Shown here: piece by piece, positions 657-6,674 of the stretch
Layout: each line of letters begins with the position of its first letter
Numbering within the stretch: the first letter of the stretch is position 1
Position numbers and translations under genes: made by a program
Source: Levyella massiliensis
GTDB taxonomy: Bacteria; Bacillota; Clostridia; Tissierellales; Peptoniphilaceae
NCBI RefSeq assembly: GCF_000308275.2
Contig: NZ_HG529490.1
Location: 1-64,000 of the forward strand
Direction: 5' to 3'
DNA length: 64,000 bases
The notes under the pieces: model-generated
What the model was told of the DNA's origin: nothing
The model's database searches: none
What the model saw: the letters and a program-made list of their open reading frames with translations, nothing else

Positions 657-728
657 CGCGGGGTAGAGAAGTGGCATCTCGTCGGGCTCATAACCCGGAG
701 ACCGCAGGTTCGAATCCTGCCCCCGCAA
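657..728 (+). tRNA. Initiator tRNA-fMet (CAU)
   Basis: A complete cloverleaf can be drawn. The acceptor CGCGGGG pairs with CCCCGCA except for the C1-A72 mismatch that marks bacterial initiator tRNA. The anticodon stem has the three consecutive GGG:CCC pairs typical of initiator tRNA around the loop CTCATAA, giving anticodon CAU. The T arm is GCAGG-TTCGAAT-CCTGC. CCA is not encoded. Confidence 0.96.
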
Positions 729-774: not shown

Positions 775-810
775 TTGTAAAAGTAGGGGGCAGGATGAGA
801 ACCCGGTGAG

Positions 811-1068
811 ATTGCCAGAGCTCCCGCAAGACCAAGCGCCGAAGGCGCGCAGGTCGAGCGGCGAGCGAGGCATCCAGAGGCGCGAAGCGCCGTGGGATTG
901 CCAGAGCTCCCGCAAGGCCAAGCGCCGAAGGCGCGTAGGTCGAGCGGTGAGCGAGGCATCCAGAGGCGCGAAGCGCCGTGGGATTGCCAGAGCTCCCGCA
1001 AGGCCAAGCGCCGAAGGCGCGTAGGTCGAGCGGTGAGCGAGGCATCCAGAGGCGCGAAGCGCCGTGGG
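811..1068. repeat. Three tandem copies of an 86-bp GC-rich repeat
   Basis: Copies begin at 811, 897 and 983, each with ATTGCCAGAGCTCCCGCAAG and ending CGCCGTGGG. Copies two and three are almost identical; copy one differs at a few bases. Each unit holds two small hairpins, GCGCCGAAGGCGC and GGCGCGAAGCGCC. All six frames over this block contain open reading stretches only because of the repeat composition, and I do not support a gene here. The bases just after the last copy repeat the 3' end of the upstream tRNA gene (see findings). Confidence 0.9.
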
Positions 1069-1199
1069 AATCCTGCCCTCGCAGGATATTTTTTTTGCGC
1101 ACACCCATTATTGTGTTATGGTAGAACCATCAGATTTGGGCCCTTAGGTGTGGCGCCGGGGCATATAGGAAAAGGTTATCTATTTCAAAGGAGTGTGGC

Positions 1200-3444: not shown

Positions 3445-4221
3445 TTGGAGAATCCGTTTATCAGCGTGCGCCATTTGACCAAAGTTTTTAGCATGGGCGA
3501 TGATAAAGTCTATGCGTTACGCGACGTCAATTTGGAGATTGCACGCGGAGAAATCATCTGTTTACTGGGTCCCTCGGGCTCCGGAAAATCGACATTGCTT
3601 AACGCATTGGCAGGACTGGAAAAGCCAACCAAGGGCGAGATTATTGTTGGCGGCATTCATTTGGAACAATTGAATGAAGCGCAGGTCACTCTCTTTCGTA
3701 GCTTGAATGTCGGATTTGTATTCCAATCCTATAACCTCATTCCCACGCTCAATGCGATGGAAAATGTAACGTTGAGTCTGATGGTAAAAGGCGTGCCCAA
3801 GAAGGAATATGAAGCGGCGGCCAAACGCGTGTTATCGCTGGTGGGACTGGGGGATCGACTCTATCATCGCCCGAATCAGCTTTCCGGCGGGCAACAGCAA
3901 CGCGTCTCCATCGCCCGTGCGTTGGTGGGTAAACCGAAGATCTTGTTTGCCGATGAACCGACCGGCAACCTGGACACCAAGACAAGCTTTGAAGTGATGG
4001 ATCTGATAAAGCGCATTGCCAGAAAAGAAAATATTACGGTCATTATGGTGACGCATGATGAAGAAATGACCGTCTATGCGGATCATATGTTGCATATGCG
4101 TGATGGCGCAATTGAGCGTCATACACGAAAGAACGAAGGAACGAACAGTTCGGCGGCCGAAAGACAAGAAGTAAGGGAAATCATAGCAGCCGCTTCGCAG
4201 GGAGGGAGAGACAATGATTAA
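3445..4221 (+). CDS. ABC transporter ATP-binding protein (MacB/LolD type)
   Basis: This ATPase should drive the downstream FtsX-like permease. Walker [10 protein letters not shown] near residue 42, signature LSGGQQQR near 146 and Walker B ILFADEP near 167 are intact, with the H-loop in VTHDEE. The insertion-free layout and neighbours place it in the MacB/LolD/SalX group. I choose the TTG at 3445 because GGAAGGAGG lies 5-6 bases before it and the protein then begins [15 protein letters not shown], the normal beginning of the family; the frame is open further upstream (to 3337) without family similarity. Its end overlaps the next gene by 8 bases. A 30-residue polar tail follows the ATPase domain. 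Confidence 0.88.
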
Positions 4222-5308
4222 CAGCACAAATCTGCCGCAGATGCTGACGGGTGGCAATGATGGCAATGGAAATGGCAATCTTGGCATGGGAGTTACGGTG
4301 GCAAACAAGCCGAAACTGATCGTTTCCAATTACCGCTTAAGCCCGGAGATGCCGCAAGCAGGACAGGAATTTGAACTGTCGCTCACCTTTACCAATACGA
4401 ATGCGGAAAAATCCGTGCGCAATATTAAAATCAGCCTGGGGGGCGGCGAAAGCGGAGCGATTCCCACAGCATCGCAGATGGGAAAGGACACCGCAGCCAT
4501 GATGCCGTCGGGGAGTGCCTCGGTCTTTACACCGGTAGGCTCATCCAACACCTTTTACATTGCTAAAATTCGTCCGCAAGACACGGCAAGAAAGACCATT
4601 CATTTGAAAACAGCACCGACCTTGGCCGCGCAAAACTATTCCATTAATGTGGCTTTTGAATATGAGGATTTGCTCGGCAATGAATTTACGGCGACGGAAA
4701 CCATTGGTATTCCCGTCGTACAGACGGCGGATATTCTCCTTGGCGATGTGCAAATCAAAGGGTCCTCCGGTGAAGAAGATCTGTCGGTGGGCACACCGGT
4801 TAACGTGGACCTGGACCTTTACAACACCGGCAAAGATCCGCTGACCAATTTCATGGTTACGATTCAGGGAGATGGCTTTAAAGTGAGCGGCTCGCCTCGC
4901 TACTATGTGGGCAATTTCAATCCTGGTGCTTCAGATCATTTTTCAGGAGAGATTGTACCTGAAGATAATCAAATGAATGGCACGATTTTGATTACCTATG
5001 AGGATTCGACGGGACAAAAGCATGAGAAAAAGCAGACCTTCCAAAAGACGGCAACGGGAAAAGTCGGCGAAGGAAAAGTCGATCGCAACAAGCTCCAAAA
5101 CGATGCAAAAACCGGATTGTTGGTGAACCCGGAAACCAGTCAATACTATGATCCGAAGACATTGCAGCCCAAGGACGTTGAGCAACCTTCACATTTTCCG
5201 TGGCTACCGGTAGGAATCTTCGCGATTGCTGTGGTCGTGGCCATCTTGCTCATTCGTCGCCATAATAAAAAGAAACGGCAGGAAAAGGAGCTGGACTTGG
5301 ATGCGTAA
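4214..5308 (+). CDS. CARDB/COG1361-like adhesin-type protein with C-terminal membrane anchor
   Basis: The 364-residue protein has a Gly/Asn-rich start, then two beta-rich regions resembling the NEW3/CARDB-type domains seen in S-layer-like COG1361 proteins (for example VSNYRLSPEMPQAGQEFELS and DVDLDLYNTGKDPLTNFMVT). Near residues 326-347 there is one membrane segment followed by a lysine/arginine-rich tail, a layout that puts the large domain outside the cell. It lies between an ABC ATPase and an FtsX-like permease, overlapping both by 8 bases, so it is probably the third component of that transporter. Oddly, no signal peptide is present: a TAG stop at 4184-4186 prevents an extended start. GGAGGGAG supports ATG 4214. 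The function is not known to me. Confidence 0.7.
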   Translation: MINSTNLPQMLTGGNDGNGNGNLGMGVTVANKPKLIVSNYRLSPEMPQAGQEFELSLTFTNTNAEKSVRNIKISLGGGESGAIPTASQMGKDTAAMMPSGSASVFTPVGSSNTFYIAKIRPQDTARKTIHLKTAPTLAAQNYSINVAFEYEDLLGNEFTATETIGIPVVQTADILLGDVQIKGSSGEEDLSVGTPVNVDLDLYNTGKDPLTNFMVTIQGDGFKVSGSPRYYVGNFNPGASDHFSGEIVPEDNQMNGTILITYEDSTGQKHEKKQTFQKTATGKVGEGKVDRNKLQNDAKTGLLVNPETSQYYDPKTLQPKDVEQPSHFPWLPVGIFAIAVVVAILLIRRHNKKKRQEKELDLDA

Positions 5309-6674
5309 TCTTGACCTTATCCCCCTGGCGTGGCGCAATTTATTGCGTCGCAAATCGCGTACGATCCTGACGGTGATCAGCGTGATAATCGGCGCTGTGG
5401 CCATTATTCTCATGTTATCGTTTGGCTATGGGATGCAGGAGAGCACGCGTAAGCAGATGGAGGATTTTGCACAACTGAATTCCATTACGGTGACGCCGAC
5501 AAAAGCCTCGGATAGCACTTCGAAAGGCGGACAGAGGGGCTATTTGCGCGAGCAAGAGGTAGAAAAGATACGTCGTATCCCGCATGTGAAAGCGGTTTTG
5601 CCCAGCAAGTACGTGCCCTACACGCTGGAATTTCAAGATGCGGATTTGCATGCACCAGGCAATATGCAAGCCATCGATTTTGACGAACTGCGCAAAAGCA
5701 ATATCAAGATGAAACGCGGGGCCATTCCGCAATCGACCAATCGGGACCCTTTCATCGTGAGTCCGTCGCTGCGCGTGCTTCGCTATGATGCCTCTAAGAA
5801 CATCAGCGTTATGAAGCCGGAGAAAGATTTTGACTTTGCAAAGGCGAGAGTCTTCGTGAGCATTATGGATTTTGGCCAAGAGAACGCGATCACGATCGGT
5901 AACGGCCCGGCGCAAAATCGCCACATGCTCACGTATGCCGGCACGTTCGAAAAGTCGGATCTCTTATCGCCGCGCGGCGTCTATATTTCCTTTGATACCT
6001 TGGATCGCCTGGATCAAAAAAGCCATCGCTTAAACGCTTCTGTCGCAGATGATGCCTCAAAGGGTGGACAATCCGTTTCATCCTCTGCGGCCTCCGGCAA
6101 AGCGAAAAATCGCCATTATGATGTTGCTACCGTAACGGTGGATGACCTGCAGAATATCAAGTCGGTCATTGATGCGATTTCGGAGTTGAAGCTCTCCGCA
6201 TACTCGAATGAAGATTTCATTAAGAGTCAGCAGGAAGGCATCCGCGTCGTACAGATGATATTTGCCGGCATCGGCTCAATTTCACTTCTCGTGGCCGCCA
6301 TCGGCATTGCTAATACTATGCTTATGTCCATCCATGAGCGAACCCGCGAGATCGGTGTGATGAAGGTCATTGGTGCGCAGGTCAGCGATATTCGCAAAAT
6401 GTTTCTCATCGAAGCGATGCTGATCGGTATCATCGGTGGCATCTTCGGTGTGATTGTGTCGTATTTGTTCTCCATGGGTGCCAATCATATGTTCGCTGAG
6501 TTTTTGCGGCAGCAGGATCTTGGCGGCGATGAAGAAATTCTCATCAGCATCATCCCATTCTGGCTGCCGTTTGCCGCGTTTCTTTTCTCCGCCTGCATCG
6601 GTCTTCTGGCGGGGTATTTGCCGGCTCGTCGTGCCACCCGTATTTCCGCGATCGAAGCAATACGCACGGAATGA
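5301..6674 (+). CDS. FtsX/MacB-like ABC transporter permease
   Basis: The protein has a first membrane helix (about residues 18-42, after LAWRNLLRRKSRTILTVISV), a large extracellular MacB_PCD-type domain to about residue 325, and three more helices at the C-terminus, with the typical FtsX motif ERTREIGVMKVIGA between helices. Such permeases act as mechanotransmission or export machines for lipids, peptides or lipoproteins. I choose ATG 5301 (457 residues) because GGAAAAGGAG precedes it and the product begins like the family; an open frame continues upstream inside the previous gene. It is the last gene of the three-gene operon. Confidence 0.87.
   Translation: MRNLDLIPLAWRNLLRRKSRTILTVISVIIGAVAIILMLSFGYGMQESTRKQMEDFAQLNSITVTPTKASDSTSKGGQRGYLREQEVEKIRRIPHVKAVLPSKYVPYTLEFQDADLHAPGNMQAIDFDELRKSNIKMKRGAIPQSTNRDPFIVSPSLRVLRYDASKNISVMKPEKDFDFAKARVFVSIMDFGQENAITIGNGPAQNRHMLTYAGTFEKSDLLSPRGVYISFDTLDRLDQKSHRLNASVADDASKGGQSVSSSAASGKAKNRHYDVATVTVDDLQNIKSVIDAISELKLSAYSNEDFIKSQQEGIRVVQMIFAGIGSISLLVAAIGIANTMLMSIHERTREIGVMKVIGAQVSDIRKMFLIEAMLIGIIGGIFGVIVSYLFSMGANHMFAEFLRQQDLGGDEEILISIIPFWLPFAAFLFSACIGLLAGYLPARRATRISAIEAIRTE

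Follow-up and report, generated by a model that had tools for sequence, protein, structure and literature searches.

Organization of the locus

The window, the whole stretch of 64,000 nucleotides that was analyzed, encodes an ABC ATPase of the MacB/LolD/FtsE type, a CARDB-type protein and a MacB/FtsX-type permease in overlapping genes (Table 1). The longest open reading frame of the ATPase runs from 3337, and its likely start, judged from the sequence, is the TTG at 3445 behind AAGGAGG. The nearest NCBIfam kin of the ATPase are YbbA, LolD and DevA, with every score below the family cut-off. The CARDB-type gene begins at an ATG with a Shine-Dalgarno match and overlaps the ATPase gene by 8 nt (ATPase stop codon at 4219-4221), while the permease ATG in turn overlaps the stop codon of the CARDB-type gene. 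An in-frame TAG lies 10 codons upstream of its start, just as the earlier sequence-only reading of this DNA had described. That reading had also placed the gene inside an ABC operon, and with a LolD/FtsE-like ATPase on one side and an FtsX/MacB_PCD permease on the other, the operon is indeed of the MacB/FtsX type. It does not encode a MacAB tripartite exporter, as its third gene is of the CARDB type and not an HlyD/MacA-type adaptor. In a whole-genome scan, the only MacB_PCD match adjoins the CARDB-type gene, and the only CARDB match is the gene itself (20.8 bits, below the cut-off). Elsewhere in the window, a GC-rich repeat of three tandem copies (86-nt period, 96% alike) stands behind a tRNA-Met gene.

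Table 1. Features of the CARDB-type locus and of the upstream part of the window
Feature	Position	Strand	Basis
tRNA-Met gene	657..728		
GC-rich tandem repeat	806..1069		
ABC ATPase, MacB/LolD/FtsE type	3445..4221	+	Pfam ABC_tran 5.3e-37
CARDB-type partner protein, signal-less, 364 aa	4214..5308	+	ORF, Pfam, AlphaFold2 model
Polar Gly/Asn-rich N-terminus, residues 1-30	4214..4303	+	aligns with Gly-rich pre-core linker of longer relatives
First beta-sandwich domain, residues 35-170	4316..4723	+	AlphaFold2 model
Second beta-sandwich domain, residues 174-280, CARDB match	4733..5053	+	Pfam, model
Transmembrane segment FPWLPVGIFAIAVVVAILLI, residues 328-347	5195..5254	+	hydrophobicity scan; model helix
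K/R-rich tail RRHNKKKRQEKELDLDA, residues 348-364, and stop codon	5255..5308	+	sequence
MacB/FtsX-type permease	5301..6674	+	Pfam FtsX 1.2e-21, MacB_PCD 5.6e-12

Pfam CARDB (PF07705) matches residues 178-273 of the protein with 26.9 bits against a gathering cut-off of 22.7; membership in the family is borderline, because the genome scan gave the same stretch only the lower score above. AlphaFold2 predicted two confident beta sandwiches and a helix at residues 331-360 (mean pLDDT 83.8), and the tail ends in a conserved (E/D)Lx(I/L)(D/E) motif. The beta domains, the C-terminal helix and the positive tail named by the sequence-only reading are thus borne out by Pfam, the model and the count of K and R residues. 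So is its claim that a signal peptide is missing: the best 12-residue Kyte-Doolittle mean within the first 45 residues is 0.73. The protein is accordingly not of type I, the class of single-pass proteins exported by an N-terminal signal peptide. A structure search returned many beta-sandwich proteins from either side of the membrane, among them transglutaminases, TRAP subunits and WxLIP, and the fold therefore does not reveal the compartment. A sequence search of solved structures gave four matches, with E of 0.036 or worse. The label "adhesin-like" in the sequence-only reading is a guess from the fold.

Signal-bearing and signal-less relatives

A profile search found the gene in 133 of the 249 genomes of the order; it is present in 89/130 genomes of the family and in 54/101 relatives. 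Gene models were rebuilt at 100 loci, the window and 99 other regions, and 97 were classified. A signal peptide is present at 57 of these and missing at 40, the latter from eight genera. The best N-terminal 12-residue hydrophobicity separates the two groups, as it is at most 1.63 in signal-less (n=40) and at least 2.17 in signal-bearing proteins (n=57). The three unclassified loci are L113 (masked start), L124 (no start near the ATPase) and L122, for which a wrong start was called and which on recheck has a signal peptide. All five searched genomes of the window's genus are signal-less, as are all 26 gene-carrying genomes of an Anaerococcus-like genus, g24 (five listed g24 genomes have no match), and six further genera contribute one to three signal-less genomes each.

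Named signal-less records come from Murdochiella, Kallipyga, Helcococcus sueciensis and Anaerococcus, and named signal-bearing records with readable starts from Lagierella, Mediannikoviicoccus, Soehngenia and other clostridial and lachnospiral bacteria. Altogether 33 of 77 named loci, a set that overlaps the other sampled genomes and is not an independent sample, are signal-less. Seven further rows of the named set were flagged as signal-less, of which five proved signal-bearing and two lie at a contig edge; three additional rows are without a start.

The two groups also differ in length, with 52/57 signal-bearing proteins longer than 500 aa and 35/40 signal-less ones of 325-379 aa. The gene order ATPase-CARDB-permease is found at every classified locus except L086, which is without an ATPase hit, and L089, where the permease match is 782 bases off. 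At all 40 signal-less loci, the start has a Shine-Dalgarno match of at least 5 bases and lies at most 26 nt from the ATPase end, with a start-picking script that favours such matches. No conserved neighbour that would tell the function was found; the largest family among 374 flanking ORFs covers 20 loci of one genus-level group. No relative was found on viral contigs. Among the matches listed in a literature search, by titles and abstract openings, there was no published work on this protein family. A CARDB partner of such ABC systems is already known, and it is the signal-less, C-terminally anchored state that is new.

Evolution of the signal-less state

In a tree of the ATPase and permease, the signal state needs three changes, while shuffled labels need a mean of about 31. 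This tree has 96 rows: L086 and L089 (no nearby permease hit) are left out, L113 and L124 were not called, and L122 is included unlabelled. With 53 chosen rows, placing all signal-less rows in one clade was rejected (p-AU 2e-97), though weakly once L044 was taken out of this tree (p-AU 0.023). The number of changes is equally compatible with loss or with regain in L036, and loss is the simpler reading because the signal-bearing state is usual elsewhere. On this simpler reading, the signal peptide was repeatedly lost within one bacterial family while the rest of the build was kept. In 10 signal-less pairs, some with a member in common, dN/dS is 0.03-0.14 for the CARDB gene, comparable to its ATPase (0.01-0.09) and permease (0.03-0.15) neighbours. 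The signal-less CARDB genes are under purifying selection and are working genes.

The sequence-only reading had suggested a comparison with homologues for missing N-terminal sequence, and the longer relatives do have a signal peptide and, in most cases, additional outer domains. In the alignment, a Gly-rich linker leads up to their core, which begins near NKPKLI. It is this linker that lines up with the Gly/Asn-rich start of the window protein, and the gene therefore looks 5'-truncated. The N-terminus is most plausibly what remains of the linker after a truncation that would have removed the signal peptide and an outer domain. These two losses are separable, because three short signal-bearing forms of 362-398 aa (L109, L116 and L118) lack the outer domains and retain the signal peptide.

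Other N-terminal parts precede the core in Kallipyga, Helcococcus sueciensis and L035. None matched a Pfam family over the cut-off, and profile comparison with the outer domains of signal-bearing forms gave nothing convincing (best probability 0.3%). Between Kallipyga and Helcococcus, these parts show at most a faint profile match (2.2%, E 0.02), and the Kallipyga model, with a mean pLDDT of 61.9, is poor in its N-terminal part; as evidence for a core on either side of the membrane, these parts were therefore rejected. In L035, a member of the window's genus, residues 1-90 form the extra segment, which contains a CPPCG motif and matches no Pfam family. In L107 (genome G014), a second signal-less CARDB-like gene (4733-5653, 306 aa) lies directly upstream of the ATPase-CARDB-permease operon, and its product has a C-terminal helix and a K-rich end without the usual motif. 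L055 (G133) is missing the conserved tail end and has one TAG inside the profile match, which may reflect a recent truncation.

Conservation of the core, helix and tail

The two groups share 37 conserved core sites, each with the same residue in both, and a further five sites per group are conserved in that group only. A control split within the signal-bearing forms gave 43/43 identical sites and nine and five one-sided sites. Taken by clade, the Murdochiella-type proteins agree with the signal-bearing forms at 42/42 shared conserved sites and the Anaerococcus-type proteins at 38/41, with 15 sites conserved in the latter clade only. Between groups, the permease agrees at 72/74 sites with a rank correlation of 0.78 (control 79/79 and 0.85), and the ATPase at 86/86 sites (control 91/92), so that the permease, unlike the ATPase, diverges slightly more between the groups than within the control. 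The signal-bearing side of the core, permease and ATPase comparisons excludes L122, L128 and L129.

The C-terminus is constrained as well. A loose form of the tail motif occurs in 38/40 signal-less and 52/57 signal-bearing proteins, and two of the five signal-bearing exceptions, L128 and L129, have no C-terminal helix. In signal-bearing forms with the helix, the tail must lie inside. The tail behind the helix is 11-19 residues long in the 40 signal-less proteins (17 in the window protein), and the first 12 tail residues include 6-9 K or R in 40/40. The window protein has seven, compared with two in the 25 residues before the helix; this is the charge pattern of a reverse signal anchor, positive after the helix with few charges before it.

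On a manually entered scale, the tail hydrophilicity sum is 23.6-41.3 in the 40 signal-less proteins and 36.4 in the window protein. Tails that cross the membrane in E. coli typically stay at or below about 5-6, a threshold derived from multi-spanning proteins, and exceeding it abolished the insertion of two test proteins, according to PMC11589881. The window tail is thus far from the weakly hydrophilic tail expected of a protein whose C-terminus crosses. In raw medians, signal-less proteins have a more hydrophobic helix, fewer K/R before it and more after it than signal-bearing ones. Phylogenetic regression found no effect on these three measures (p 0.96, 0.82 and 0.61, respectively) over 93 rows (L122, L128 and L129 out) with only three independent pairs, and the idea that the helix or the charge bias grew stronger in adaptation to the loss of the signal was rejected on this ground.

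Cysteine content and translocases

Cysteine makes up 0.24% of the outer part of signal-less proteins (32/13,208 residues), about 2.5 times the 0.095% of signal-bearing ones. Its share is 0.94% in flanking soluble ORFs (318/33,669) and 0.19% in the cytosolic ATPases of signal-less loci (19/10,140). Because these ATPases are as poor in cysteine as the outer parts, cysteine content does not tell the two compartments apart. The ATPases beside signal-bearing forms have 130 cysteines in 14,486 residues, compared with 19 in 10,140 beside signal-less forms. A single Cys after Met occurs in the second beta sandwich of 18/26 Anaerococcus-type signal-less proteins (L045-L049, L051, L053-L056, L059, L061-L063, L065, L072, L077 and L082), where the window protein has valine. 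The extra N-terminal parts of L035, L037, L039 and L040 have 2-3 cysteines each.

A search for translocases covered 17 genomes, 10 signal-less and 7 signal-bearing, and in these no extra translocase was seen to accompany signal loss. All 17 have one full SecA match and one YidC match over the cut-off, and TatC is absent from all 17. The window's genome has a second YidC match, which is below threshold and has stops. A second, partial match to a SecA domain occurs in five genomes, over the cut-off in G006 and G049 (signal-bearing) and under it in G144, G033 and G014 (signal-less).

Discussion

The CARDB-type protein would be a single-pass partner that, with the ATPase and the permease, makes up a three-subunit ABC system of the MacB/FtsX type. 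Its ancestor was presumably an exported single-pass protein with a signal peptide, usually at least one outer domain, the two-domain core, the helix and a basic cytosolic tail. As the alignment suggests, the 5' part coding for the signal peptide and outer domain would then have been lost, with translation now beginning in the pre-core linker. Under this scenario, the core most likely still lies outside, beside the permease ectodomain, and the tail inside, beside the ATPase. The C-terminal helix would then have to serve as a reverse signal anchor and send about 320 residues out via SecYEG and SecA. With 17 residues between the helix and the stop codon, this anchor can act only once translation is over.

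Judged from sequence features, we give even chances to the view that the topology is unchanged (N-out, C-in) and that the C-terminal helix is the only export signal, used via SecYEG/SecA. The broader claim, that a commensal group sends out a folded N-terminal domain of some 320 residues without a signal peptide, with recognition of the finished protein at its C-terminus and passage through the Sec channel, is tentative and falls a little short of that. Against this view, such export with a C-terminal helix as the only signal is not known to have a bacterial precedent. YidC alone should not export the core, because insertases of the Oxa1 family prefer flanks that are short and unstructured and EMC is unable to move N-tails that are long or structured, as stated in PMC10155758. 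In its complex, the protein may relay ATPase movements to an external target or stand in for an adaptor, as the family would suggest. It probably shares the function of the family, in which the partner couples the movement that the ATPase drives in a MacB/FtsX-type permease to an external target.

The sequence-only reading had left two options for the large domain, outside by an unusual route or inside and acting on the ATPase. We find the former better supported, because the constraints on tail and core resemble those of exported relatives. The second option would make the protein a tail-anchored cytosolic subunit (N-in, C-out), with the core now at work in the cytosol, where it could act for instance on the ATPase or the permease's cytosolic face. 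The missing signal peptide fits this arrangement, as does the helix, which is single and followed by the short stretch of residues that defines tail-anchored proteins. It is likewise in favour of an inside core that the helix must insert post-translationally and that Oxa1-type insertases prefer short, unstructured flanks (PMC10155758); according to PMC6794478, synthetic proteins with an N-terminal reporter and a C-terminal helix insert N-in in E. coli. Some cysteine has also been gained, in the 18 Anaerococcus-type second sandwiches and in the N-termini of L035, L037, L039 and L040, and the Anaerococcus-type clade departs from the signal-bearing forms at 3/41 conserved core sites. However, a tail-anchored protein would place 6-9 K/R outside, contrary to the positive-inside rule, and its tail would be far more hydrophilic than the E. 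coli limit in PMC11589881 allows. Nor would a change of compartment predict that the tail motif and all 37 shared core sites are kept. We therefore consider this arrangement unlikely, if still a serious contender. The probability that these two readings leave goes to permease-coupled insertion, hidden signals and unforeseen possibilities.

A further proposal of the sequence-only reading, that the protein is exported by its own transporter, found no support. The overlapping coding regions suggest coupled translation, which could favour export or insertion by the ABC permease or jointly with it. However, signal-bearing relatives have the same operon, often with the same overlaps, and yet use a signal peptide. 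Systems of the MacB, LolCDE and FtsEX type transmit force or take up their substrates on the outer side, and they are not known to carry proteins across the inner membrane. Export by the permease is thus improbable.

A signal peptide might also be encoded nearby and joined to the protein through an unannotated start, a frameshift or read-through. When the forward frames between 400 nt before and 45 nt after the start were scanned, signal-like starts came up at 3/40 signal-less loci (the window, L049 and L055), but each ends at a stop codon before the gene, and that of the window is missing from its three closest relatives, L031-L033. The other 37 loci gave none, while the same scan recovered an in-frame signal at 19/20 signal-bearing control loci. 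The Shine-Dalgarno-matched starts close to the ATPase end at 40/40 loci, subject to the preference of the script, likewise speak against a hidden signal, and such an origin is very improbable.

Homologues with clear signal peptides do exist, which would fit a sequencing error, decayed gene or mis-assembly in the window, but of the error that the sequence-only reading had considered alongside them there is no sign, since the signal-less state is common to 5/5 genomes of the genus, eight genera and 40/97 loci, with conservation across species and purifying selection in the pairs (CARDB-gene dN/dS 0.03-0.14); we regard this explanation as next to impossible. Sequencing error, frameshift and decay were rejected by the locus counts, the hidden-signal scan and dN/dS.

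If the topology of the signal-less proteins is unchanged, a large N-terminal domain lies outside without a signal peptide, contrary to the working rule, and sorting tools based on signal peptides misplace such proteins. If the topology is reversed, sister lineages use one domain family on opposite sides of the membrane. Both outcomes would be surprising, and the signal-bearing and signal-less relatives form natural pairs that make the question directly testable.

Comparison with known systems

Bacterial tail-anchored proteins such as DjlC and SciP share with the window protein the lack of a signal peptide and a single helix that lies at most about 20 residues from the C-terminus. Tail-anchored proteins are N-in/C-out according to PMC6794478; by contrast, the window tail is strongly basic and hydrophilic. 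The reverse signal-anchor (N-out, type III) proteins have an N-terminal part exported without a signal peptide, like the state proposed here. Examples are ProW in E. coli and neuregulin in animals. The exported tail of ProW is about 100 residues long and is followed by its helices, whereas the helix of the window protein is at the very end. Among the Foldseek matches are the Ig-like domains of Enterococcus WxLIP (9i25 and 9i1y), with low overall TM-scores of 0.22-0.30. WxLIP has a signal peptide, two Ig-like domains and a C-terminal helix, and no ABC operon.

The ATPase and permease belong to the same families as those of MacAB, LolCDE and FtsEX, the type VII ABC systems. The partner here is a CARDB-type single-pass protein, in contrast to an HlyD-type adaptor such as MacA or to a peptidoglycan hydrolase. 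The closest counterparts are the signal-bearing CARDB (COG1361-like) partners of MacB-type systems in Tissierellales and other Clostridia, which have the same operon order and core domains and, in nearly all cases, the C-terminal helix, basic tail and end motif, and which differ from the window protein in their signal peptide and, for the most part, their additional outer domains.
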